From: Deltaproteobacteria bacterium
GTDB taxonomy: Bacteria; Bdellovibrionota; Bdellovibrionia; Bdellovibrionales; JAMPXM01
Assembly: GCA_017302795.1 (NCBI GenBank)
Contig: JAFLCB010000007.1
Location: 124,001 to 188,000, forward strand
Direction of reading: 5' to 3'
Length of the DNA: 64,000 nt
Position 1 is the stretch's first letter. Every line of letters starts with the position of its first letter. Positions 5,697-63,952 of this stretch are shown piece after piece. A program made the translations under genes and the position numbers. The notes below the pieces were generated by a model that was given only the letters and a program-made list of their open reading frames with translations, was not told where the DNA came from and made no database searches.

Positions 5697-7130
5697 TTAG
5701 TTCTTCGTAGCTGGAGCAGCGTAGAGCTTCAATTGTGAATTTAAATTTAGTAGTTCAGCCATTGCGCGAATTCTTGCGAAAGCTGTCTGATCGTAGTCGG
5801 ATTCAAAAAGAATAACTTGTGCGACAGTGGATTTGCCACTGCGTTGCCGGTTTCGTTCGTGATCAAGTTTTTCCTTTTGGGCAGTCTCGAGCTCTTCATA
5901 AAGCTTAAGTTTTTCTTTGGCCAATTCGTAGCGTGACAATGTGTCGATCCAATCGCGTTCCTGGTCAAAGGCTTTGCGCGAAGCGATCGAGCGGTTTGCT
6001 CTCGCCTCTGCTGACCAAGCTTCTTGAATTTTATCGGTCGATTCAAAGTCGAGCGGCATATTGAATCGAACGCCAACGGTTGATGAAGGGCGATTGGAGC
6101 TCCAGGAATCGTTGAAGGCATCTGCTTCAAGTCCGCGCTGAGGCGAGTTAAACGCGTAGAGGCCGTACACTTCCAAATTTGCCTTGGTGCGCTCGGAAGT
6201 CGCAAGGGCTTGTGCTTCAGCTGATTCTGCTTGAAGAATCGACGCTTTCACGTCGGGGCGACTGTTGGTTTTTTCGGGCGTCTTCCAGGTTGATGCAAAT
6301 TTAGAATTAAATGTCGTCAAGTCCTCGGTCACAAGATCGCCTTGTCGACCGCGTGCTGCGTTGAAAGCTAGTCGGGCGGATCTCGCATCGTCTTCAGCAA
6401 TGAGGTAATCAAGCTTTCTTGCTTTCAATTGCGCCGAAGCTTGTAAGTTTTCGGACCGATCGGAAAGTGAAAGTCGAACTCGACGACTGGTCCAATCAAA
6501 CATTGCCTGTGCTCGATCGACAGAAGCCTTTGAAATCCGCAATGCTTCGCGGGTAATCGCGAGGCGCCAATACGCCGCTTCGGCTTCCAGCATGATAGCT
6601 CGACCGGTCGCCTCTTGGGCGGCTGCCTTAGCGAGCGCACCTTTTTCGCCGGCCAATACCGAGTATTTAGTTTCACGGCCAAAGCCATTTCTTAAAAGAG
6701 GGAGCGATGCTTCAAGCTGTGGGCGTCCCTCAAAATATTTGGGGGCGATACCAACATAGTTGTAATCGGCAAACGCAAAACTGAATTTTGCTTGAAGTCC
6801 AAATGAGAATTGATTCTGAACACCAACATTGTAGTTCGAAGTTTCGAGCCTCTGGTACGGGAAAAAGGGACTTGGTTTCGCGTCAGATGTCATCGAGGCA
6901 CCGGCAAAAAATGAAGGCTTCAGCATCAGCCCAGGTTCAAGTGCTGAAGCCAGCGAAGCAGCTTCAATTACTTTTGCTGCCGATGCCATTTCGTTTCCCG
7001 TGGAGACCTGTTCTAGAAACTCATCGAGTTCTAATTTTACCGGACCCGATTTCTCGGCAATTGATTTTGAGTGTGCGAAGAGTGACAAGCAGACCAATGA
7101 AATCGAAAGCAGGCGTCGCGAATTCGTCAT
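5697..7130 (-). CDS. TolC-family outer membrane efflux protein
   Basis: 477 aa from the ATG at 7130. A signal peptide (LLSISLVCLSLFAHSKSIAE) is followed by the duplicated coiled-coil/beta-strand layout of outer membrane efflux proteins: long alanine- and glutamate-rich helices (EKGALAKAAAQEATGRAIML; ELAKEKLKLYEELETAQKEK) and short barrel strands. It should form the outer-membrane duct for the RND pump encoded directly downstream. The frame remains open upstream of 7130 into the tetR gene, but that extension would hide the signal peptide. It begins 8 nt after tetR ends, consistent with one transcript. Confidence 0.9.
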   Translation of the reverse strand: MTNSRRLLSISLVCLSLFAHSKSIAEKSGPVKLELDEFLEQVSTGNEMASAAKVIEAASLASALEPGLMLKPSFFAGASMTSDAKPSPFFPYQRLETSNYNVGVQNQFSFGLQAKFSFAFADYNYVGIAPKYFEGRPQLEASLPLLRNGFGRETKYSVLAGEKGALAKAAAQEATGRAIMLEAEAAYWRLAITREALRISKASVDRAQAMFDWTSRRVRLSLSDRSENLQASAQLKARKLDYLIAEDDARSARLAFNAARGRQGDLVTEDLTTFNSKFASTWKTPEKTNSRPDVKASILQAESAEAQALATSERTKANLEVYGLYAFNSPQRGLEADAFNDSWSSNRPSSTVGVRFNMPLDFESTDKIQEAWSAEARANRSIASRKAFDQERDWIDTLSRYELAKEKLKLYEELETAQKEKLDHERNRQRSGKSTVAQVILFESDYDQTAFARIRAMAELLNLNSQLKLYAAPATKN

Positions 7131-7138
7131 GAAATTTC

Positions 7139-7798
7139 CTACGGTGTTGCCGTTTGGCGGTTGCGATCCAGTCCACTGATAACAAACTGGGTCCACTGTT
7201 CGAGGGCTAAATTTCTATAGTCTTTGTTTTGGATCGACGGACGACCCAAAATTTTCCGATGCGGTTCGCTCTGAAGGATGTGCATCAATGATCCAAAGAC
7301 GAGGGAAGTTGAAACTTCGGGGTCTTTCATCTCACTTATAAGGCGATTTTCTTCCGCATGTTTCAGAAACGTAACTAGCGCCATAAAAATTTTGAAGAAC
7401 CCGCCGCGAAAGATTTCAACGATTGCCGGAGTCAGCATCTGAATGTCGCGATGAATGATGCAACAAAGCTCTGGTTCACGTAAGTGAACCTCGATCATTT
7501 CTTCACCAAACATCATTACCCGTGTCTTGAATTCATCGCGTGAATGCGCAGGCTTTAAAATTCGCACGATGGTTTGAACGCGCTCCTCGGCGAAGTCGAC
7601 AAGACATTCGCGATAAAGACCTTCTTTTCCGCCAAAGTAATAGCTAACAAGACTGACATTGACCTTTGCTGCATCCGCGAGATCTTTCACGGTGGCGCCT
7701 TCAAAACCTTTTTCGGCAAAAACTTTTTTAGCCGCTTCAAGTAAAGCCTGCCGCGAGTCTGATTTTTCTTTTGGTGCAACTGAACTGTGTTTTGACAT
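7139..7798 (-). CDS. TetR/AcrR family transcriptional repressor
   Basis: 219 aa. The N-terminal helix-turn-helix is clear: RQALLEAAKKVFAEKGFEGA, then TVKDLADAAKVNVSLVSYYF with the conserved YYF followed by GGKEGLY. The C-terminal ligand-binding half resembles the CerR/AcrR-type C-terminal domain (EMIEVHLREPELCCIIHRDI). It is the first gene of the efflux operon, so autoregulation plus local control of the pump is the natural expectation. The ligand is not predictable. An inverted repeat upstream at 7832-7847 is a candidate operator. Confidence 0.92.
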   Translation of the reverse strand: MSKHSSVAPKEKSDSRQALLEAAKKVFAEKGFEGATVKDLADAAKVNVSLVSYYFGGKEGLYRECLVDFAEERVQTIVRILKPAHSRDEFKTRVMMFGEEMIEVHLREPELCCIIHRDIQMLTPAIVEIFRGGFFKIFMALVTFLKHAEENRLISEMKDPEVSTSLVFGSLMHILQSEPHRKILGRPSIQNKDYRNLALEQWTQFVISGLDRNRQTATP

Positions 7799-7831
7799 TC
7801 GAGCCTAGTATCGGCGAGTCGTATTAGAATA

Positions 7832-7847
7832 TCAAATGGACGTTTGA
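7832..7847. promoter_or_regulatory. candidate TetR operator
   Basis: Imperfect 16-bp palindrome with arms TCAAA and TTTGA (TCAAATGGACGTTTGA), 34-49 bp upstream of the tetR start codon, where a repressor would cover the promoter. A second dyad, ATCTC-GAAGT-GAGAT, lies at 7862-7876. Assignment to the repressor is inference from position and symmetry. Confidence 0.45.
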
Positions 7848-7916
7848 ATTTATAAAATCATATCTCGAAGTGAGATTTGATTGAAATATCATGCACTTGA
7901 GTTGCCTAGACGAAAG

Positions 7917-7944
7917 TTCGGATGCGCTTTCAGGCGCATCCGAA
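7917..7944 (-). terminator. hairpin downstream of outer-membrane protein gene
   Basis: Perfect inverted repeat TTCGGATGCGC / GCGCATCCGAA with a 6-nt loop, 29 bp past the stop codon of the minus-strand barrel gene. The downstream strand continues CTTTCG, a poor T tract, so termination may be incomplete. Confidence 0.6.
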
Positions 7945-7972
7945 TGGTCAATATTATCCTGAAACTGTCAGA

Positions 7973-8635
7973 CTAAATTTCCAAAGGAAACGAAACGCTG
8001 GCGATCCATGACTTGTTTTCCAGCTGAACGCCGTTAAGCGTCGTGCCCGGATTGAATGGCCCAAGCTGTTCGAGTTTTGTTTGGTCATATTTGAGACTCT
8101 GATATTCCAAATTCAGGCTGAGCGAATAAACGTGAAACCCCGCGCCGACTCGGTACCCTTTTGCACTTTGAAAGTTCACATCAAAGTTACTTCCAGCGGG
8201 ATCAAGATCTCCGCCAAGAATTAGCGCACCCCACACGCGCAATCCCATGTTGGGCATTTGCATCCCGATGACTGGTCCCCAGTTCACCGAACTTGCGCCA
8301 GAATCGTAGTTCACTGATGAATCCGTGTACTGTGGAAATGAATAGCGAGCATCGAGCCCAAGGAAAAACGCTTCTTGGAAATGGAATCCCAATCGCGCAC
8401 CTAGTCCAAGACCTGAGGCGGTACCAGTAGAGTTAGAAAATGGTGCCGGATAGCCGATGGAAGTGTAGCCAACTTCATAGCTGATCGAGGGTTCGATCAT
8501 TAATCCTGACTTTCCTTCTTGAGCAGAGGCAATTGAACCTGCGCCAAGAAAGAGAGCGGACACAGCGATGAGTGGCATGACAAAGCTTCCGAAGCGACGA
8601 CGCTGATGTGGCTGATTTGTTTGATTTGATTTCAT
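7973..8635 (-). CDS. outer-membrane beta-barrel protein
   Basis: 220 aa with an N-terminal signal peptide: a basic region QRRRFGS, a hydrophobic core, then AGSIASAQEG with probable cleavage after SAQ or ASA. The mature part alternates strands and turns (GLGLGARLGFHFQEAFFLGL, KGYRVGAGFHVYSLSLNLEY) and ends SWIASVSFPLEI, like an eight-stranded porin-fold or OmpW/OMP_b-brl-type protein. Function unknown; structural or small-solute roles are possible. A good -24/-12 sigma-54 promoter match sits about 47-60 bp upstream of the ATG, which ties the gene to the neighbouring stress regulon. Confidence 0.8.
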   Translation of the reverse strand: MKSNQTNQPHQRRRFGSFVMPLIAVSALFLGAGSIASAQEGKSGLMIEPSISYEVGYTSIGYPAPFSNSTGTASGLGLGARLGFHFQEAFFLGLDARYSFPQYTDSSVNYDSGASSVNWGPVIGMQMPNMGLRVWGALILGGDLDPAGSNFDVNFQSAKGYRVGAGFHVYSLSLNLEYQSLKYDQTKLEQLGPFNPGTTLNGVQLENKSWIASVSFPLEI

Positions 8636-8680
8636 TTCCGAATCCTTATGTAGGGTGTTGTTTAGACTGAAACAAGATAA

Positions 8681-8697
8681 AGCAAGATGACGGCCAC
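8681..8697 (-). promoter_or_regulatory. sigma-54 (-24/-12) promoter for the outer-membrane protein gene
   Basis: Read on the minus strand the site is TGGCCG-TCATC-TTGCT, against the consensus TGGCAC-N5-TTGCW. GG and GC are separated by exactly 10 nt. The predicted transcription start is near 8670, giving a leader of about 35 nt to the ATG at 8635. Confidence 0.75.
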
Positions 8698-8843
8698 TGT
8701 GTCTGTTGAGCTCGAGTGTTTTGAATGTCGTTTTGAAATTCTAAGCGGGGAATTTCGCCCCTTCTGAAACTTCTTGAAGAGGAGAGAGTTCTCTTTACAT
8801 CTACGAAACCGAATTGAACGAATGACAAGCGCGATTGCCCAGA

Positions 8844-8859
8844 TGGATTCGGTTTTGCA
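8844..8859 (+). promoter_or_regulatory. sigma-54 (-24/-12) promoter for the small basic protein gene
   Basis: TGGATT-CGGTT-TTGCA with GG-N10-GC spacing. The predicted start is near 8870, leaving a leader of about 42 nt that contains AAAGGA before the ATG at 8912. It lies back to back with the minus-strand sigma-54 promoter at 8681-8697. Confidence 0.7.
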
Positions 8860-8911
8860 GAACTACTTTGCAGGGAAATGTTCTCAAGTAAACAGAACAA
8901 AGGAATACAAA

Positions 8912-9124
8912 ATGAGTGAAAATGAACTATTGATGTTAACTGCTAAAAAGCCTGATCGCGCTTTGTTAAAAACAACTGTTGAATGGGTGAGGCCTCGGCT
9001 CGAAATCCGCGGAATCCGAACAGAACGTCGGCATCCTGAAGAACCAGTCGAGGATCGAAACGACCGCTTAAGTCCCCGACCGAAGTATGCATTTGAACGT
9101 GAGAAGTATTTTGAGACCATATAG
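8912..9124 (+). CDS. small charged protein, putative sigma-54-dependent stress protein
   Basis: 70-aa protein without a recognised family, rich in Arg and Glu (WVRPRLEIRGIRTERRHPEE, RPKYAFEREKYFETI). There is no signal peptide or membrane segment, so it is probably cytoplasmic. The frame is open from 8774, but the ATG at 8912 is chosen: it has AAAGGA 8-9 nt upstream, and the predicted sigma-54 start falls between the two candidate starts. Position and promoter make it a likely member of the local stress regulon. No function can be assigned. Confidence 0.55.
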   Translation: MSENELLMLTAKKPDRALLKTTVEWVRPRLEIRGIRTERRHPEEPVEDRNDRLSPRPKYAFEREKYFETI

Positions 9125-9159
9125 CGATTAGGCCACATAAAGATTAGGCCAAATAAAAA

Positions 9160-9540
9160 TTAGGCTAGAGGCTCTTTGTCAGGAGCCTCATCTTTTTTAG
9201 TTGCGCCAGTTACGACTCCATCTAAAAACCGAATGAGAAGCAATTGTAAGTCGAAGTCTTTCTGCACAGGTGTTGGTGATCGGCGAAGAACCGCAACGAC
9301 GATGAAGAGGCAGATCAGGGCCAAGGCAGAAAATGTCGCGACTTCAATTTGAGGCCCGAAAACCAGCTCTTGAATTAAAGCCTGCAGAGCTTGGAATGCT
9401 TGAACACCAGAAAAAACTGTCAGCGTCGAGAATACGATTGCAACAAGCAGTCGCAGTGCCAAGTTCGACAGCTCAGTTCGAATCGGTTTTGCTAATGGGT
9501 TCATTACCGATTGGATAGCTTGTGCCAACAAATTATTCAT
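9160..9540 (-). CDS. small membrane protein (YqjE/holin-like), last gene of stress operon
   Basis: 126 aa with two hydrophobic segments (ALRLLVAIVFSTLTVFSGV, and FSALALICLFIVVAVL) separated by a short amphipathic stretch, plus a charged C-terminus (TKKDEAPDKEPLA). Size and topology recall the YqjE/phage-holin-3-like proteins that accompany DUF883 proteins in enterobacteria, but the sequence match is weak. The ATG at 9540 has AAGGAG at ideal spacing. It follows the DUF883 gene by 52 bp and probably shares its transcript. Confidence 0.6.
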   Translation of the reverse strand: MNNLLAQAIQSVMNPLAKPIRTELSNLALRLLVAIVFSTLTVFSGVQAFQALQALIQELVFGPQIEVATFSALALICLFIVVAVLRRSPTPVQKDFDLQLLLIRFLDGVVTGATKKDEAPDKEPLA

Positions 9541-9592
9541 GGTGGCTCCTTAAAGAAAGTGGAGCTACTTTTGAACAGTAGCTCCGAGGTGA

Positions 9593-9877
9593 TTAGTTGC
9601 GGCTTCGTCGCATTGCCATTGTCAAAAGACTTCCAGCAAAAACGCCGGCGATCGCTGCAGCAGCGATCACTTTACCTGGATTTTCACGAACGTATTCACG
9701 GCTAGATTTAGCGTACTCTGAAGTTGAAGCCGCGATGTCGGCTGCCATTGCGCCGATTTTTTCGCCGGCACTGTGGGTCAGTTGTTCAAGATGGTCCTCT
9801 GGATTTGCGACTTTGCTTTTAAAGTCTCTTGCTTGACCGTTAGCTTTGTTTGAGATTTCGCTTGGGGAAATTGCCAT
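9593..9877 (-). CDS. DUF883 family (ElaB/YqjD-like) membrane-anchored stress protein
   Basis: 94 aa. A soluble helical N-terminal half is followed by the conserved segment SREYVRENPGKVIAAAAIAG and a C-terminal single TM ending MAMRRSRN. This is the diagnostic layout of ElaB/YqjD/YgaM, C-tail-anchored inner-membrane proteins induced in stationary phase or stress; the E. coli versions associate with ribosomes. The start has AAGGAG 8 nt upstream. It lies between the CsbD and YqjE-like genes in one minus-strand operon. Confidence 0.88.
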   Translation of the reverse strand: MAISPSEISNKANGQARDFKSKVANPEDHLEQLTHSAGEKIGAMAADIAASTSEYAKSSREYVRENPGKVIAAAAIAGVFAGSLLTMAMRRSRN

Positions 9878-48009: not shown

Positions 48010-48188
48010 AAAAATACTGGGAAACTTAGTTATCTAATGAACTGGTGGAAACCCGCCTCCCCCGAAATTATTCAGGATTTTTCTCTTTTCCAAACTCATA
48101 ACATCCGAGCCTCGGTATCTTCATGAAATCATTAAGACTATCGGCCTTCCTAAGGGCAGATTTTCTAAAAATTGAAAGTTTGAACAAA

Positions 48189-48268
48189 TATCGGCCACTT
48201 TATAAATGGCCGATAAATGGCCGATAATATAATGGCCATCTTTACTTTGGCCGATAAATGGCCGATAA
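48189..48268. promoter_or_regulatory. array of TGGCCGATAA repeats upstream of the fic gene
   Basis: Four direct copies of TGGCCGATAA at 48207-48216, 48218-48227, 48248-48257 and 48259-48268, arranged as two pairs with 11-bp period. An inverted copy (TATCGGCCA) lies at 48189-48197 and a partial copy (TGGCCAT) at 48233-48239. The last copy ends 6 bp before the fic ATG, so a bound protein would cover promoter and ribosome site. The Fic protein's C-terminal winged helix is the obvious candidate binder (inference). Confidence 0.75.
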
Positions 48269-48274
48269 TGGGAT

Positions 48275-49315
48275 ATGGCAAAATATCCGCACCTTACAAA
48301 ACATCAAATCCCCTCGGAAATTAAATATTCCGACAGGCTTGTAAATCTGCTGATGAGAATTGCTCAAACAAAGCCTTACATTGAAGAGTACTTAGGAAAA
48401 CCGCTTGAGGTTCAGCTCTTACGGCAAGCCAAAATTCTAGCTATCACGTACTCAAATCAAATTGAGGGGAATAGACTTGAAGAGCGTGGAGTAACAGAGG
48501 CTTTGGAGGGAAGTAAATCTAAGACCAGCGATAGAGATATCATCGAAGTTCGCAACTATAGTGATGCGCTTGAATACGTTGAAACCTTAGCTGGCGACAA
48601 AAGAAAGCTGAAAATTCGTGATATGTGCGACATCCAAAAATTGGTTACAAAAGATCTTTTGGAAGAAAAGAAACAGTGGGGTGATATTCGCACGATCAAA
48701 GTTGGTATTGTGGATGCGCATTCCGGGAAGAAGATTGACGATGTTCCAGAGCCTCATTTTTTAAAAGAGCTATTAGGAGATTTGTGGAATTGGCTTGATG
48801 ATCATCAGGACATCGACCCATTTGTGAGGTCTTTTGCTTTTCATTATCTAGCCGTCGCAATTCATCCATTTGCAGATGGAAACGGTAGAACGATGCGACT
48901 GATGCAGCATCTGTTGCTTCTTAAAAGAGGAGAAGAGATCGCGCGATTTGTTCCCAGTGAAACGGCGATCATGGCGACGAGGGGTCGATACTACTCTTCC
49001 ATTCGTCAGTGTAAGGCCTTGGGAAGTCTCAATCCTATATTGGAATATTTGGCGGAGTGTTTTGCTATAGCGGCCGAAAATGTCATTCAAGATAGCAAGA
49101 GGCTTGTTAAGCAAAGTTTGGATAGAAAACCAGAGGCCCGGCGAGAGAAGATTATAACTTTAAGTCGACAGAAAAAGGAGTTTGGTATTCAGGATGTGGT
49201 CAATGTATTGCCGGAGGTTCCGTTGCGAACTTTACGGCGCGATCTAGATTCTTTGGTTACTGAAAAAAAGCTGAAGGTAAATGGTGCTAATAAGAACCGA
49301 ACTTATTCTAAGTAA
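48275..49315 (+). CDS. Fic family protein (AMPylase-type) with C-terminal winged helix
   Basis: 346 aa. Complete Fic motif HPFADGNGRTMR at ~residue 200 with catalytic His. The N-terminal inhibitory helix is TYSNQIEGNRL (S/T-x-x-x-E-G-N type), which normally blocks ATP until relieved. The flap region is around DIRTIKVGIVDAHSG. C-terminal ~60 residues form a helix-turn-helix (KEFGIQDVVNVLPEVPLRTL, RRDLDSLVTEKKLK). The enzyme should transfer AMP to a hydroxyl side chain of a target protein, and the HTH likely autoregulates through the upstream repeat array. Confidence 0.93.
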   Translation: MAKYPHLTKHQIPSEIKYSDRLVNLLMRIAQTKPYIEEYLGKPLEVQLLRQAKILAITYSNQIEGNRLEERGVTEALEGSKSKTSDRDIIEVRNYSDALEYVETLAGDKRKLKIRDMCDIQKLVTKDLLEEKKQWGDIRTIKVGIVDAHSGKKIDDVPEPHFLKELLGDLWNWLDDHQDIDPFVRSFAFHYLAVAIHPFADGNGRTMRLMQHLLLLKRGEEIARFVPSETAIMATRGRYYSSIRQCKALGSLNPILEYLAECFAIAAENVIQDSKRLVKQSLDRKPEARREKIITLSRQKKEFGIQDVVNVLPEVPLRTLRRDLDSLVTEKKLKVNGANKNRTYSK

Positions 49316-49355: not shown

Positions 49356-50370
49356 CTACCGTTTCCGTAGCTCAAACACGTTATCAAGCCTCTCCTCAAG
49401 CACTGGAACTGCTATATTGAGGCTCTCAGTCGCACCTTCAACATCCTTTCCCGAAAGCCGCAAATAGCCTTGGGTGGTCTTTAAAAACGAGTGGCCCACA
49501 ATGGCCATCACTTTAGAAAGTGGAACTCCGTTATTGAGCATTTGCGTAATGAACGTAGCTCGGAGGTCGTGGAGCTTTACTGGTGTAATGCCGATTTCCT
49601 CGCAGAAGTTCTTTAAAATCTTCGCCTGATCTCCTTGGTTCCACTCCCACAACCTGGGGAGCACGAACTCCGAGTCCTTCGAATATTTCAATTTCAACTC
49701 CTCAAGAAACTTTCGACATTCAGTTGATACGGGATAAATCCGATTCTTCGCGGTCTTTGTTGGCCCTTGACCGTTGTACCTTGTCCAGGCTTTGCTGATA
49801 TTGATCTTTCCTGTGACGAGATCAACATCGGTCCACCTGAGACTATACAGTTCGCCTGAACGCATTCCGGTGAGTAGTGCGAGCGTCCAATGGGGAAAGA
49901 ATCTGTGATCAGTTTTCTTGGCCTGTAGAAGCAGAATCCCAATTTCATTTCTATTGAGAACTCCTTGATTGGCTTCGGCACATCTCACTCTAATTCCAAC
50001 CGCCGGATTGCGGACGATCAGACCTTCTTCGATTGCGATGTTAAAGACGCGTTTTACGATCTTTAATAGTCCGCGCTTGGTGTAGCTCGAAGTCTCTTCG
50101 GCAGTTTCAAACACGGCCGCGTGAACATCGCTCAGCTTAATATCATCCACAAACTTGTCATTCCAGATGGGATTTAACCAATTGTTCAAGCAGTGCTTGT
50201 AATTGAAGTAGGTCGAAGTTCTGTATTCGACCCGGTACTTTTCAAGTACGTGGCCAATCCATTGCTTCCAGGTCACTTTTGATTTGTGGCCTTCGAGCTC
50301 CATCATGAGTTCGAACTCGGCCTTCTTTGCTTCGCGTTCGCTATTAAACCAACGCTTGCGCTGTTCCCAG
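49356..50370 (-). pseudogene. 5'-truncated tyrosine recombinase (phage-type integrase)
   Basis: From the SEREAKKA motif onward the protein is closely similar to the intact integrase at 62858-63952, including TGMRSGELYSLRW (first catalytic Arg), HDLRATFITQMLNNGVPLSK (His-x-x-Arg), VGHSFLKTTQGYL (His and nucleophile Tyr). The N-terminal ~40 residues are missing. In their place is sequence from another gene read out of frame, giving an open frame back to 50498 whose ATG sits 1 nt after AGGAGG. It is therefore unlikely to be expressed as a full integrase. Confidence 0.75.
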
Positions 50371-50491
50371 CGTAAGTTGCAGCGGCACCGGTTAATGCGC
50401 CGCTCAATGCGCCAAGTCTGACCGATTGATCGAGTGTCGAACACGACACTGACAAAACCACTATGGGGCGCAATAAAAGTATGCGTTTCAT
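50303..50491 (-). pseudogene. lipoprotein 5' end fused to the integrase fragment
   Basis: The ATG at 50491 has AGGAGG at ideal 8-nt spacing. It encodes MKRILLLRPIVVLSVSCSTL (lipobox LSVSC) followed by a glycine-zipper-like RLGALSGALTGAAATYAG. After ~45 codons the frame enters integrase-derived DNA and stops at 50303. This is the genuine start of a small lipoprotein whose 3' end was replaced by the integrase; a 62-residue product could still be made. Confidence 0.6.
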
Positions 50492-50546
50492 TTCGCATTC
50501 CTCCTGTGTTTTGAATTTAGTGGAGGAGTGGATTTAGTGGGCGGGG

Positions 50547-51110
50547 TTAAGTAGAAATTTTAGGTTTCTTATCATTCGTTTGGATACCCTTCCAAGGATC
50601 GCCCGGAAGCAGAGTCAGTGTTCGCTGTTTGAGGAGTTCGCCCGCAGCCTGAATGTCAAACTTCGCGGTGCCTGGTCTGAGCAGCGGCTGAATATCTTCG
50701 AGAAAGGCGTTGTCGCCTAGCTTTGCGTGTAGGTTGGCTTCGTATTCTGCGCGCGAAACGGTGCTGCCGCCGTGTTCCATATATTTCTGGAAGCAGGCGA
50801 TCATCTTTTGGTCGTCCAAGTCCTTAAAGTGTTGATAGGCCATGCTCATGTCATAGGGGTCGCGTCCCTTTTTTCTCTGGTAAAGTGCGCGAAGCTTCGT
50901 TCCCAGAATTTCTTCAATCTCAAAAGTCAGGATGTCGCAGCTTCCAGTAAACCAGGTGCTTTGCATCTCAAATTCAGTCTTTTTGTGTCTGAGCACGGTG
51001 AAGTGCTCTCCATTGTTGATCTCGATCTTTAGTCGCATCGGAACTTGTGGTGGTTCTTCGCTTTGAAATCGGTATTTCAGTGCGATCGTCGAACTTAGTG
51101 GGTATACAGC
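50547..51110 (-). pseudogene. 5'-truncated AbiEii-type nucleotidyltransferase toxin
   Basis: The C-terminal part of the AbiEii/MenT-like family is recognisable: RLKIEINNGEHFTVL, FTGSCDILTFEIEEILGTKL, RALYQRKKGRDPYDMSMAYQ and VSRAEYEANLHAKLG. The N-terminal nucleotidyltransferase core (GGTALR...SEDIDL) is absent. The open frame continues to 51185, but upstream of about 51085-51110 it is antisense to an outer-membrane protein fragment. No AbiEi antitoxin gene is present. Inactive relic. Confidence 0.7.
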
Positions 51111-51420
51111 AGACCGAAGTACATCTGAGCCAGGACTGACGGGTACTAAACTCCTAGGTAAGGTCATGTATAACTTTGCGGGCACAGTGCCTGTTATTCG
51201 CTATAGTTATGCAGGGGTGGGGCTAGGTCCCGTGTATGATAACGAAGGCAGTCCTCAAAGGTGGAATCTAGAGCTTGCGTCACAAGTTGGATTTGAAACT
51301 CCGCTTAGCGACGAAGCAGCTTCAAATTTTTCGCTCGTTGCTAATGTGGCCGTTTTGCTCGTGAAAGGTGGAAGTCCAAGTTCGGCATCGGCGAACGGTG
51401 TTGCGAAGTATTGGTTCTAG
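51085..51420 (+). pseudogene. 3' fragment of an outer-membrane beta-barrel gene
   Basis: In-frame translation IVELSGYTADRSTSEPGLTG, then LGKVMYNFAGTVPVIRYSYA, VGFETPLSDEA and a terminal aromatic (VAKYWF) has barrel-strand character with a C-terminal Phe. The 5' part and signal peptide are lost where it meets the AbiEii relic head to head. An internal ATG at 51166 has no ribosome site. It is followed by a terminator, as expected of a real gene end. Confidence 0.5.
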
Positions 51421-53437: not shown

Positions 53438-54226
53438 TTAATTGTTAAATTCATCTTCGAAAGCCTTTGGTGTTTTCATTCCGACCGATGAGTGCGGCGG
53501 TTCTTCGTTGTAAGACCGTCGCCACTTCTCGATCTTCTTTGCATCGTTCAAGCACTCGTCCCGGAAGCGCGAATTGAAGGATTCAATGAACGCATTCTGA
53601 ATCGGTTTGCCCGGCTGAATATATTCTATCGCAATACTATTTTTGTAAGCCCAGTCCATTAATTCTCGCGACGACATTTCTGGGCCATTGTCACATCGAA
53701 CTTTTCTGGAAAGATTCTCGAGCGATTGGAAAAACGAAATCATATCACCGCTCGTAATCGAGTACGCGGCAAGCAGACCCGGACTTTTCTTCGTGCAATC
53801 GTCGACGATCGTAAGGCACTTCAAATGCCGATCGTTTTCAAATCGGTCGGATACAAAGTCGAACGCCTAAATTTCGTTCGGCGTCGTCGCCTTGTTGTGC
53901 GGAACCCTTTTCACAGCCATCTGCTTCACGCGCCTTCGGTTTTTAATCTGCAAGCAGAGCTTTTGGTAGACTCGCTCGGTTCGATGTATACTCACAACGA
54001 GACCTTCGCGGCGAAGTAAAAAATGGAGGCGCGGCAAACCGAAACGTCGGTGCTTCGTTGAGAGTTCTTTTATTCGCCGCTCAAGATCCTCGTCTCGAGA
54101 TTTGTGCGGCTTGTACGTCATCGTTGATCGATTCAGGCCCAAGACATTCACAATGTGGCGAACGCTCGCCGAATATTTGGCTTTCAAACACACAGCGGAA
54201 CTTTTCTGGGAGTTGAGCCCTACCAC
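53438..54226 (-). pseudogene. IS3 transposase OrfB, broken by an in-frame stop
   Basis: The HTH_21-like N-terminal part (KHRRFGLPRLHFLLRREGL) and rve integrase core lie in the same frame, separated by TAG at 53867-53869. The family normally has Trp there (NERWSFDFVSD; here NEI-stop-AFDFVSD). The DDE residues remain: TIVDDCTK, RCDNGPEM and NAFIESFNSRFRDE. A short deletion follows ECLND compared with the usual C-terminal segment. Confidence 0.8.
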
Positions 54227-57971: not shown

Positions 57972-58402
57972 ATGCCCAAGAAACGGTACACGACAGAAGA
58001 AATCATTCAGCATTTGCGCACAGCGGAGATCGAGCAATCCAAAGGCTTGAGCCAAGAAGAAGTTGCGAGAAAAGTCGGCGTGACAAAAGTGACTCTCGCT
58101 CGCTGGAAGAACGAATACGGCAGCTTGAAGATCGATCAAGCCAGACGTTTGAAGGATCTCGAAGCCGAAAACAACCGTCTCAAAAAAATCGTCGCCGACC
58201 TATCAATTGATAACTCGATTCTGAAAGAAGTAGCCAAGGGAAACTTCTAAGCCCTGCACGAATGCGTGAAGCGGTCGTTCATGCGATTAAGACGCTTCAG
58301 GTAAGCGAGCGCAGGGCTTGCAAAGTCACATCGGTCAACTGCGGTCAACGAACCGCCCAACCAGGAGCGCGATGCAGAGAGTATCGACTATGGGGTCCTT
58401 AG
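57972..58402 (+). mobile_element. second IS3-family remnant: intact orfA, truncated orfB
   Basis: OrfA (57972-58250, 92 aa) has the HTH YTTEEIIQHLRTAEIEQSKG, EEVARKVGVTKVTLARWKNE and the leucine zipper LKDLEAENNRLKKIVADLSI. OrfB continues in the overlapping frame from 58250 (SPARMREAVVHAIKTLQVSE, RRACKVTSV), a typical IS3 OrfB start, but degenerates and stops at 58402; the integrase core is missing. The 3' end was lost against the lipoprotein gene. Not closely similar to the element at 53378-54553. Confidence 0.75.
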
Positions 58403-59600: not shown

Positions 59601-59624
59601 GGTAGAATCAGGCCTTGAGCGATG

Positions 59625-59640
59625 TTAGCGTATATGCTAA
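59625..59640. promoter_or_regulatory. candidate autoregulatory operator of the toxin-antitoxin operon
   Basis: TTAGCGTATATGCTAA: 5-bp arms TTAGC/GCTAA around a TATAT core, immediately followed by ATAT and ending 15 bp before the toxin ATG. It overlaps a probable -10 region, as expected for repression by the antitoxin's helix-turn-helix. Confidence 0.55.
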
Positions 59641-59655
59641 TATCGTCTTAGGTTT

Positions 59656-59946
59656 ATGAAGAAAACTAAGCAGGTCTATCAGGGCGAATTCTTTAGCATC
59701 GAGTTTTTCATCGCGAGCGATGGCTCTGCGCCAGCTGAGGAGTGGCTCGATTCTCAACCTATGAAAATGCAGCAGAAGCTCGCGGCGCTTTTCAAAATGT
59801 TGGGCGATGTCGGCAAAATGTATAACGAGCAGAAGTTCAAGCATTTGACCGGAACGGACCAGCTTTTCGAATTCAAAGCGGATCAGGGTCGTGTTCTTTG
59901 TTTCTTCTTCGTTGGAAAGCGCGTGATTTTAACTCACGGTTTTTAA
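59656..59946 (+). CDS. HigB/RelE-superfamily toxin (phage-derived Gp49-like)
   Basis: 96 aa. Matches the Gp49/HigB pattern: FFIASDGSAPAEEWLDSQPM, KLAALFKMLGDVGKMYNEQK, FKHLTGTDQLFEFKADQGRV with the LxEx(R/K) strand, and LCFFFVGKRVILTHGF. These are ribosome-dependent mRNA endonucleases. Toxin-first order and the following Xre antitoxin are typical of HigBA. The ATG at 59656 is the only sensible start. Confidence 0.85.
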   Translation: MKKTKQVYQGEFFSIEFFIASDGSAPAEEWLDSQPMKMQQKLAALFKMLGDVGKMYNEQKFKHLTGTDQLFEFKADQGRVLCFFFVGKRVILTHGF

Positions 59947-60025
59947 AGAAGGGCGACAAGACCCCAAAAGGCGAAATTGAACGACCTGAAAAGATGAAAA
60001 CTGAATTTGTATCGAGGAGTAAGTA

Positions 60026-60337
60026 ATGAAGAAACAATCGAAAACTAAAAGCTGGCTCGATGAGAAGCTCAAAGATCCTAAGTTTAAAAAGGGATTCGAA
60101 AACGAATTCGAGAAGCTCTCGATTGGTGAACAGCTTGTTCGGCTTCGCCTGAAGGCTGACATGACCCAAGCTCAAGTTGCGAAACGCATTGGAACCACGG
60201 CGTCAGCGATCAGTCGTTATGAAAATGCTGAGTACGATCGTTATGAAATTCAAACTTTACGGAAGATAGTCGAAGCTTGCGGTGGTCATTTGAAACTTGT
60301 GATGGAAGGTCCGGATGATAAGGGGCGAGTGGCCTGA
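60026..60337 (+). CDS. HigA-type Xre family antitoxin
   Basis: 103 aa. N-terminal helical region (KDPKFKKGFENEFEKLSIGE) that typically binds the toxin, then an Xre helix-turn-helix (LRLKADMTQAQVAKRIGTTA, SAISRYENAEYDRYEIQTL). It starts 79 nt after the toxin stop with GAGGAGTAAGT upstream of the ATG. Neutralises the toxin and should repress the operon through the operator at 59625-59640. Confidence 0.9.
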   Translation: MKKQSKTKSWLDEKLKDPKFKKGFENEFEKLSIGEQLVRLRLKADMTQAQVAKRIGTTASAISRYENAEYDRYEIQTLRKIVEACGGHLKLVMEGPDDKGRVA

Positions 60338-60537: not shown

Positions 60538-62301
60538 ATGCTGAAACAACTTCGAACCTCAAGAAGCGCAACATTCTACAAAACCGGCACGCTCTTACCG
60601 AAGGCATTTGTTGAGTCCACCTTCAGGCAGATTTCTCAGAAGGGTGAAGGCCGTCCCGTTATTCGAATTGTGAAGCAGAAGCACAAATCGCCGATGAAAT
60701 GCGAAATTTCATTCATCGTTTTCAAATTCCATGATGAGCCAAGTTTCTTCGATAATTCAGGTTTGAAGGAAGTTAAGTTTGCTTTTCTATTGATGGTGCA
60801 AACATCGCAGAATCTCATTGTTATAAAAAAGCATATCGATGGATTTGATCAGATCATTCAGAAAAGAGCTCAGCGCCACGAGTACGAAACGATTCAGTTT
60901 CTCTTTAGCTCTGAAGATCCCTCGTACGAGAAGATGGCACTTTCCTCTATGGGAATATCTAAAGCTGCGATTTTGAGGAAGACGCTTGAGTCTGACGATT
61001 TGAAAGGCCAGCTTTCCGCGCAGAGCGTCCGGCGCTCTATCCCGACGTCAACAACAGTTAGAACACGTGATCATCGTCACGTTCTTCGGCCCACGAGCTC
61101 CAGTATTTCCAAAACGGACAGTAAATCTAATTTCACGGGTCTGATGAAATGGATCAATGACATATGCGGAGAGCTCGCGAAAGCTCCAGGGCCGAATGCT
61201 TTTTTGAGCGGTTTTGCACAACCGGTAAAATTCGATCTCGTTCACGATAGGCCGCTGCGTCCAACGGCGGTTCTTCTAAACCTTTCGGAATTGAAGAGTG
61301 AGCTTTCATCCGATGCCAGTCTTTTTTGGGACGGGCGAGAACTGAAAGGAGCTCGAGCACACAGTTTTTTAAATCGACTTGAGAGTAATTTCGATGTCGG
61401 CGTAGAAGAACGAGAAAATCTTTTTCGAATTCAGGTTGGAGATGAGGAAAGTCGAGCGGATGTGGGGTTTCTCAAACTGAACAACAGTTCCTTTAGTCTT
61501 CGGTCTAAGTGGCTCAAAAAGATTTCGATTAAAACGCAGTCTTATGAGGAAATCGATTTGGAGAGATACCTAAATAAAGAACAGCACTTCACCATCACAT
61601 TCGATACTCCAGAATATGTTTATCTAGCGCGTAAAATATTTCGCGACCAGGGCATCATCAAGCACTGCGACGAGATCGTAGCGGCCATGGAAACTCTAAA
61701 TTTTTCGGGGATAAATGACGAAAAAGGCCCTCCAAAAAAGAGCGATCGGCGGTTTCCTAAAAACTCCGTGTTCAATCTCGTTGAAAAAAAGCTCTCCAAC
61801 AAAAACAGTGCTCTCCTTTGTGATGACTTGGGGGACGAATGGGCAGATTACGTCAAGCTGTCGAGGAGCCCGCTTGGCATTGCTTTGATTCACTGCAAGT
61901 TCGGTAAGCCGTCGACGAGTGCCAGTCAGTTGCACGAGGTAGTCGGACAGGCTCTGAAAAATATAGGCCGAACATCTCTTTCGCCTGAAGACATCGATCG
62001 TAAGCTTCTCAGCTGGGCAACCAACTACACCTCCACCAAAATTAAGCGCGTTCGATCTAAACATTCTTCGCAGCAGTTGCGGCGTCTTTGCGGGGACCTG
62101 ATTACAAGCCCCGTGGTTGCTAAGGAAATAAATCTAGTTGTTCCTTTTCTGTCGAAAGGCGAACTGGTAGCCCAGTTTAAGTTAATGGGCGCTTCTGCTA
62201 CCGTAAAACCGCATCTCCCCCAACTTGTTTGGCTCTTGTCGACATTCGTCGCCGCCTGTAAGGAAACAGGCGCTAAGCCTGTTATAATCTGTAGCAAGTA
62301 G
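60538..62301 (+). CDS. large protein of unknown function with restriction-nuclease-like core
   Basis: 587 aa, soluble. N-terminal ~150 residues contain beta strands (PMKCEISFIVFKFHDEP, KFAFLLMVQTSQNLIVI). A Ser/Thr/Arg-rich linker at ~160-195 leads to the central part. Around residue 425 there is LLCDDLGDEWADYVKL, a short strand, and GIALIHCKFGKPSTSASQLH then EVVGQALKNIG. The D...(E)xAD-x(n)-HCK arrangement recalls PD-(D/E)XK nucleases of Mrr type, with His in place of Gln/Glu before the catalytic Lys. I recall similar wording in uncharacterised restriction-linked proteins. It lies beside HigBA and an integrase, so a defence role is plausible but unproven. Confidence 0.6.
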   Translation: MLKQLRTSRSATFYKTGTLLPKAFVESTFRQISQKGEGRPVIRIVKQKHKSPMKCEISFIVFKFHDEPSFFDNSGLKEVKFAFLLMVQTSQNLIVIKKHIDGFDQIIQKRAQRHEYETIQFLFSSEDPSYEKMALSSMGISKAAILRKTLESDDLKGQLSAQSVRRSIPTSTTVRTRDHRHVLRPTSSSISKTDSKSNFTGLMKWINDICGELAKAPGPNAFLSGFAQPVKFDLVHDRPLRPTAVLLNLSELKSELSSDASLFWDGRELKGARAHSFLNRLESNFDVGVEERENLFRIQVGDEESRADVGFLKLNNSSFSLRSKWLKKISIKTQSYEEIDLERYLNKEQHFTITFDTPEYVYLARKIFRDQGIIKHCDEIVAAMETLNFSGINDEKGPPKKSDRRFPKNSVFNLVEKKLSNKNSALLCDDLGDEWADYVKLSRSPLGIALIHCKFGKPSTSASQLHEVVGQALKNIGRTSLSPEDIDRKLLSWATNYTSTKIKRVRSKHSSQQLRRLCGDLITSPVVAKEINLVVPFLSKGELVAQFKLMGASATVKPHLPQLVWLLSTFVAACKETGAKPVIICSK

Positions 62302-62857: not shown

Positions 62858-63952
62858 CTAGCTCTTTCGACGCAACTGCACGACGTTGTCTGATTTCGCA
62901 GCGACATCCGGTACCTGGATGTTGAGCTCCTCTGTTGCTCCTTCGATGTCTTTCCCTGACAGCCGTAAATAGCCTTGTGTTGTCTTGAGGGAAGAGTGAC
63001 CGACGATCGCCATCACTTTAGATAGCGGAACGCCGTTGTTGAGCATCTGCGTAATAAACGTCGCTCGAAGGTCGTGAAATTTGACTGGTGTAATGCCGAT
63101 TTCGAGGCAGAAACTTTTAAGGACCTTGGCTTGGTCTCCTTGGTCCCACTCCCACAGGCGTGGAAGTACGAACTCGGAGTCCTTGCTAAAGTCTGTTTTC
63201 AGCTCGCCTAGAAACCGTCGGCATTCTTTTGAGATCGGACAAATCCGGGACTTCGCGGTCTTGGTCGCTCCTTCGCCGTTAAGCTTCGTCCACGCTTTGC
63301 TGATGCTGATCTTGCCGGTGACGAGATCAACATCAGACCACCGTAGACTGTAAAGCTCACCGGACCGCATTCCCGTGAGGAGTGCAAAAGCCCAGTGCGG
63401 AAAGAATCGGTGCTCGGCTTTGCGCGCCTCGATCAATAGGATCTCAACCTCGTTTCGGTTGAGGACTCCTTGATTGGCGTCGGCGCAGCGAACTCGAATT
63501 CCGACGGCGGGATTCCTTACGATCACGCCCTCTTCAATCGCGAGATTGAAAACGCGTTTCACGATCTTTAGTAATCCTCGCTGCGTGTAGCTGGAAGTTT
63601 CTTTGCAGCCTTCGAAGATCGCATGGTGCACATCGCTTGGCTTGATCTCACTCAAAAACTTCTCATCCCAAACCGGGTTGAACCACTTGTTCAAACAATG
63701 TTTGTAGTTGTGAAATGTCGAATGGCGATACTCGACTCGATATCTTTCAAGGATATGTTCGACCCAAGCCTTCCATGTCACGTTTGTTTTGTGACCCTCA
63801 AGATTCATTTTCATCTCGAGCTCGGCTTTTTTAGCTTCACGCTCGGATGAAAATCTTTTTCGGCTCGCAACCTGTTTCCCGGATTTGTCTCTAACTTTAA
63901 TGAAGACTTCGAACGCAAGTTTTCCGTCGATCATCTTTTTCGTAATTGTCAT
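62858..63952 (-). CDS. tyrosine recombinase (phage-type integrase)
   Basis: 364 aa, complete. N-terminal SAM-like/core-binding domain (EHILERYRVEYRHSTFHNYK). Catalytic domain with Arg in TGMRSGELYSLRW, Lys in the beta-hairpin region (SKAWTKLNGEGATKTAKSR), HDLRATFITQ, and VGHSSLKTTQGYL with the nucleophilic Tyr. AGGAGTAACTC precedes the ATG at 63952. It is closely related to the truncated copy at 49356-50370, so the two mark separate or duplicated integrative elements. Confidence 0.95.
   Translation of the reverse strand: MTITKKMIDGKLAFEVFIKVRDKSGKQVASRKRFSSEREAKKAELEMKMNLEGHKTNVTWKAWVEHILERYRVEYRHSTFHNYKHCLNKWFNPVWDEKFLSEIKPSDVHHAIFEGCKETSSYTQRGLLKIVKRVFNLAIEEGVIVRNPAVGIRVRCADANQGVLNRNEVEILLIEARKAEHRFFPHWAFALLTGMRSGELYSLRWSDVDLVTGKISISKAWTKLNGEGATKTAKSRICPISKECRRFLGELKTDFSKDSEFVLPRLWEWDQGDQAKVLKSFCLEIGITPVKFHDLRATFITQMLNNGVPLSKVMAIVGHSSLKTTQGYLRLSGKDIEGATEELNIQVPDVAAKSDNVVQLRRKS

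Follow-up and report, generated by a model that had tools for sequence, protein, structure and literature searches.

The gene at positions 60538-62301 (+ strand) of the window, the whole 64,000-nt stretch of DNA that was analysed, encodes a 587-aa protein of the PDC-S71 family, which is probably a single-polypeptide nuclease effector directed against phage or mobile DNA and itself carried by mobile DNA. The protein comprises an N-terminal region, a middle region and a C-terminal domain resembling PD-(D/E)XK nucleases. Relatives of the gene were found beside several defence systems, including at the end of CBASS operons, and a defence role of the window protein is moderately probable.

A catalogued family with a patchy distribution

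The ORF proposed in the initial annotation was confirmed. It runs through 587 codons without interruption, and its start lines up with the starts of many relatives in the family alignment. The PADLOC model PDC-S71 (PDLC05077 of PADLOC-DB v2.0.0, a single-gene phage defence candidate) matched residues 2-586 of the protein over profile positions 4-588 of 589, with an E-value of 3e-155. This full-length match, together with relatives in several phyla, indicates that the ORF is a real gene and not a chance reading frame. The protein had no significant profile match in Pfam, NCBIfam or PHROGs, and sequence searches of PDB chains returned nothing credible (best E 0.03 for an mL100 chain and 0.87 for a carbamoyltransferase). 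Neither phage-challenge or biochemical experiments on PDC-S71 nor a description of its fold or active site was found in the literature, and most PDCs of the core defensome are described as still awaiting validation (PMC12988326). The protein had been put forward as an undescribed effector. This has to be corrected insofar as the family has an entry in PADLOC-DB as an anti-phage candidate, and it holds insofar as neither Pfam nor NCBIfam has a model for it and no experiment was found.

A pattern scan of 84,980 species genomes, built from three proteins, detected 37 related loci, mostly in Pseudomonadota and also in Planctomycetota, Acidobacteriota, Bacillota and Bacteroidota. Single-sequence pattern scans yielded no relatives in genome contigs or viral contigs; the alignment-derived pattern succeeded in genomes only, and no copy was found by pattern scans, the alignment-derived one included, of viral contigs and phage records. 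When plasmid records were searched by tblastn, a stand-alone copy was found in Acinetobacter, a copy in Thioclava, and further matches in the C-terminal half of DEAD/DEAH helicases. The Thioclava copy (L004:7620-9624) is truncated at its C-terminus, immediately ahead of an IS3 family transposase gene. In the phylum of the window, the gene was present in 1 of 291 genomes, namely the window's own, and among 60 close relatives no further genome carried it. This near-absence indicates that the gene was most likely acquired horizontally. In the family tree, the window copy lies on a long branch, with a best identity of 32%, to a Planctomycetaceae protein.

Predicted fold of the C-terminal domain

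The whole protein was modelled by AlphaFold2 with 36 sequences at a pLDDT of 86, while residues 371-587 alone reached a pLDDT of 92 and a pTM of 0.89. The predicted nuclease core covers residues 391-587 (61708-62298, + strand) and is supported by the model, structural matches and conservation. It contains a helix (411-419), three strands (424-428, 438-443 and 446-453) and a second helix (463-479), which is followed by further helices and by strands 528-539 and 580-586. The alpha-beta-beta-beta-alpha-beta order of the PD-(D/E)XK superfamily core is thus present in the predicted model.

Comparison of this domain by VIA-align gave PD-(D/E)XK nucleases in all of rows 1-29, according to our own classification of the listed entries, and the first other protein ranked 30th with a Z of 4.3. 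Among these nucleases were CdiA-CT, FokI, BspD6I, EndoMS, Cdn1, McrC, BstEII, a Hachiman chain, SfsA, Shedu, EcoT38I, Card1, MspJI, LmuA, HerA-DUF4297, BsoBI and Hjc. The best match was CdiA-CT (4g6u, Z 7.9 over 150 residues), and FokI (Z 7.2 over 130 residues) and the small subunit of R.BspD6I (Z 7.2 over 114 residues at 2.7 A) scored close to it; all Z values were below 8, a range that according to the tool can reflect a common arrangement. Foldseek of the domain against the PDB gave no significant match (best E about 0.08), with the whole model Foldseek produced nothing but long misalignments below significance, and a viral structure library contained no significant match to the domain. The fold assignment follows from the consistency of the matches, the topology and the placement of the motifs taken together, and not from a single high score. 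On this basis, the C-terminal domain is very probably a PD-(D/E)XK nuclease.

An invariant His-x-Lys motif in the putative active site

Conservation was concentrated in the predicted core, with 18 of the 27 invariant columns falling in residues 391-480. E395, C428, D429, D430, E434, D437, H452, K454, Q471, K474 and N475 were kept in all 36 aligned sequences. The segment CDDLGDEWAD (residues 428-437; 61819-61848, + strand) carries E434 (61837-61839) and D437 (61846-61848), and the model places D437 where core strand 2 begins. Core strand 3 ends with H452-C453-K454 (61891-61899, + strand), and the helix that follows bears the QxxK element Q471-A-L-K474-N475 (61948-61962, + strand). Upstream lies E395-K396-G397 (61720-61728, + strand), of which E395 is also retained in the helicase-fused relatives described below. 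C453 was variable (S in 20 sequences, A in 15 and C in 1), as expected for the x of an HxK motif. The residue two before the lysine was His in 36/36 sequences, in contrast to the E, D or Q of the PD-(D/E)XK superfamily, and the acid at the active site may instead come from the invariant E434 or E395.

One of the two search patterns contained CDDLGDE, so that the conservation of this segment partly reflects the search itself, while HxK and Q471 were absent from both patterns. One protein found by the second pattern alone (L021) has I at position 433, yet keeps E434, D437, H452 and K454. Moreover, the helicase fusions, which were found by tblastn independently of the patterns, retain C428, D430, E434, D437, K454 and Q471. 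H452 is kept in the fusions of Mycobacterium, Sulfitobacter and R. leguminosarum and replaced in the other rhizobial branch, where the motif reads V-A-K or A-G-K. Conservation across the fused and stand-alone forms indicates that D/E...K...Q is the deeper invariant and that the His is nearly invariant in the stand-alone form.

The segments quoted in the initial annotation were all present, as CDDLGDEWADY (428-438), GIALIHCKFG (447-456) and QLHEVVGQALKN (464-475), and its His-Cys-Lys was read correctly, as an instance of the family trait HxK. The confident model, the structural matches and the invariant D437, H452, K454 and Q471 all support its reading of a PD-(D/E)XK domain in which His replaces E/Q. 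Structure prediction could have shown a fold lacking a nuclease core, and the core was predicted; D437, H452 and K454, which could have varied among relatives, were conserved in 36/36 sequences, C453 being the exception.

N-terminal regions and helicase-fused relatives

The model placed an alpha/beta domain at residues 1-215 (60538-61182, + strand) and a middle region with few conserved residues at 216-390 (61183-61707, + strand). Residues 1-215 weakly resembled the RdgC, CENP-L and Iml3 folds, with Z of 6.5-7.0, which is background level. RdgC and CENP-L/Iml3 are DNA-associated proteins. An RdgC/CENP-L-like identity was kept as a lead only, since unrelated SAM decarboxylases scored equally.

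In its entirety, the S71 protein is equivalent to the last ~600 residues of DEAD/DEAH helicases encoded on plasmids; hhalign aligned the whole family with helicase residues 426-1023 at an E-value of 1.3e-33. The part in front of the S71 module is an SF2 helicase with ResIII and DEAD domains. Fusions with S71 as the C-terminal half were located at L006:5820-8888, L005:6666-8876, L051:842-3916, L052:2366-5377, L053:1976-5323 and L054:1850-5320, and 6 of the 9 plasmid records with helicase-fused relatives were predicted to be conjugative. Because the alignment covers the whole family, the N-terminal and middle regions are not specific to the window protein and travel with the nuclease, alone or behind an SF2 helicase. 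The PADLOC PDC-S71 model also matches the fusions, and the two forms may be merged in that entry. AbiV (L051) and a SIR2-family protein (L054) are encoded among the neighbours of the fusions.

Surroundings of the gene in the window

The recognised neighbours in the window are a HigBA-like pair, a Fic gene and mobile-element genes. Upstream lies the toxin-antitoxin pair of a Gp49/HigB-like and an HTH/HigA-like gene (59656-60337), just in front of which an inverted repeat, GCGATGTTAGCGTATATGCTAATATCGT, was noticed that could be an operator (pair and repeat, 59619-60337). The pair was rejected as a component of the system, with a gap of 200 bp and no such recurring pair seen among the neighbours of relatives. 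Downstream is a tyrosine recombinase (62858-63952, - strand), a diverged copy of the one at 49356-50498 (300 nt at 75%), from which it lies about 13.5 kb away. Beyond the window, the contig continues (C7, L050) with T4SS genes having TraC/VirB4-, TraG- and TrbI-type domains. The recombinases and T4SS genes together probably represent an integrative conjugative element or its remnant; long direct repeats flanking it were not seen.

Some further features were noted in the window. An ORF beside the recombinase (50547-51185, - strand) resembles by eye the C-terminal part of an AbiEii-type nucleotidyltransferase and is possibly a broken gene. Two tandem 41-nt copies of a TGGCCGATAAATGGCCGATAAT-type repeat (48188-48269, 78% identical) lie directly upstream of the Fic gene at 48275 and are a possible autoregulatory operator. 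Transposase fragments were recognised by eye at 53438-54226 (- strand) and 57972-58250 (+ strand), around PPK2-like and P-type ATPase-like genes.

A classical Type II RM system was rejected, the flanking genes scanned being toxin-antitoxin, HTH and integrase genes with no methyltransferase seen, and so was a prophage gene, there being no phage matches. The neighbours had been taken as a sign of defence in the initial annotation. This could not be upheld, since the immediate neighbours point to mobile DNA and not to a known defence island; it is relatives in other genomes that provide the defence context.

Defence neighbourhoods and a two-gene cassette among relatives

PADLOC scans of the neighbours of relatives identified Gabija at L034 and HEC-06/Orf5 at L039, and Type I RM subunits adjoin L007 and L043 according to the neighbour sequences and Specificity_I models. 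Six loci (L012, L016, L024, L026, L027 and L029) have a DUF2235 ORF (T6SS_Tle1-like_cat, PF09994) that shares 4 bp with the beginning of the S71 gene. Upstream of this pair, L024 carries a type III-like CBASS of HORMA, HORMA, TRIP13, cyclase and NucC, with the pair 9 bp from the NucC ORF, and L012 likewise has TRIP13, cyclase and NucC. A CBASS with cyclase, E2 and HNH-SAVED precedes the pair in L029 and L016.

Comparison of L024 with L029 by blastn gave a single homologous block (6820-9821), which begins with the DUF2235 start, ends with the S71 stop and is 81% identical, with no homology outside it. Judged from these sequences, the DUF2235/Tle1-like hydrolase and S71 form, in alphaproteobacteria, a sharp-ended 3.0-kb two-gene cassette placed behind two CBASS types. 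Most S71 genes, the window copy included, have neither a CBASS nor a DUF2235 neighbour; no CD-NTase was seen among the genes around the window copy, and a cyclase occurred only near some alphaproteobacterial relatives.

Proposed function and alternatives

We propose that residues of about 391-587 would act as a metal-dependent nuclease of the PD-(D/E)XK fold. D437, the invariant E434 and the H452-x-K454 motif would most likely make up its active site, together with Q471 from the next helix, and E395 may contribute. Residues 1-390 would have a sensing or DNA-gripping role and hold the nuclease inactive as long as no foreign nucleic acid or phage cue is present; once activated, the nuclease might cut phage DNA or, in abortive infection, the host's own. 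The relatives beside CBASS, Gabija, HEC-06 and Type I RM subunits were counted in favour of a defence effector, and the patchy presence and the adjacent integrase and T4SS genes are as expected of acquired DNA. Counted against it were the lack of a significant Foldseek match, Z values below 8, His in place of E/D/Q, the long branch, and window neighbours that are not defence systems apart from the toxin-antitoxin pair.

The same domain might instead serve the mobile element, against competing plasmids and phages or in recombination or transfer, and not phage defence of the cell. The window gene adjoins integrases and a T4SS cluster, and the helicase-fused relatives are plasmid-borne, mostly on predicted conjugative plasmids (6/9 records). 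Nevertheless, relatives also adjoin several defence systems unrelated to one another, and conjugation genes are not evident next to most loci, so that we regard this explanation as unlikely; the two roles are not mutually exclusive. Less probable still is that S71 is an accessory or second effector of CBASS signalling and the window copy an orphan responding to a signal or partner that another part of the genome supplies. The 4-bp overlap with DUF2235, the position of the pair behind CBASS genes in L012, L016, L024 and L029, and the shared 81% identical DNA bounded by the DUF2235 start and the S71 stop would fit such a role. However, both CBASS operons already carry their own effector, most S71 genes, including that of the window, lack a CBASS or DUF2235 neighbour, and a search of the window genome yielded no DUF2235 gene, control genomes being equally silent.

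A domain that has the fold but is catalytically dead, serving as a DNA-binding or structural module, would agree with the non-canonical His at the E/Q position and with its replacement in rhizobial fusions, which have V-A-K or A-G-K. In such a domain, loss of the putative catalytic residues would be expected, but E434, D437, K454 and Q471 do not vary, the fusions included, and H452 is kept in 36/36 stand-alone proteins, which makes this the most improbable of the explanations considered. Returning to the nuclease effector, we tentatively suggest that PDC-S71 might be a transferable execution module, composed of a DNA-gripping N-terminal part and an obligate His-x-Lys nuclease, that is used alone, behind an SF2 helicase, or with a DUF2235/Tle1-like hydrolase as a cassette at the end of unrelated CBASS operons.

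Comparison with known systems

The PD-(D/E)XK effectors of known defence systems (LmuA, HerA-DUF4297, Cap4, Card1, Shedu, Hachiman and McrC) share with S71 the core fold, the D that starts strand 2 and the x-K in strand 3, and gave VIA-align Z values of 4.6-6.2 for most and 3.5 for Cap4. They differ in having E/D/QxK where S71 has HxK and in their N-terminal and middle regions, and no match was found at the sequence level. If the HxK site is active, an invariant His can hold the acidic PD-(D/E)XK position across a whole defence family, and motif searches that demand E, D or Q would miss such families. The nuclease domains of FokI, BspD6I, EndoMS and CdiA-CT are the closest structural matches to the C-terminal domain (Z 6.4-7.9), although sequence similarity to S71 is not detectable and their partner domains are unrelated.

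The plasmid-borne DEAD/DEAH (ResIII-type) helicases of Bradyrhizobium, Rhizobium, Sinorhizobium, Mycobacterium and Sulfitobacter have an S71-equivalent C-terminus with conserved E, D, K and Q. They differ from the window protein by the SF2 helicase in front, which it lacks, and by loss of the His in one rhizobial branch. With the PDC-S71 catalogue entry, the window protein agrees over its full length as a stand-alone gene, of which it is a divergent member (best identity 32%), whereas the entry gives no fold, active site or mechanism. New for PDC-S71 are the probable active site, the fold, the helicase-fused relatives and the link to CBASS operons. The predicted active site (D437, H452 and K454), the fold, the fusions and the bounded cassette turn a bare catalogue entry into a directly testable system.
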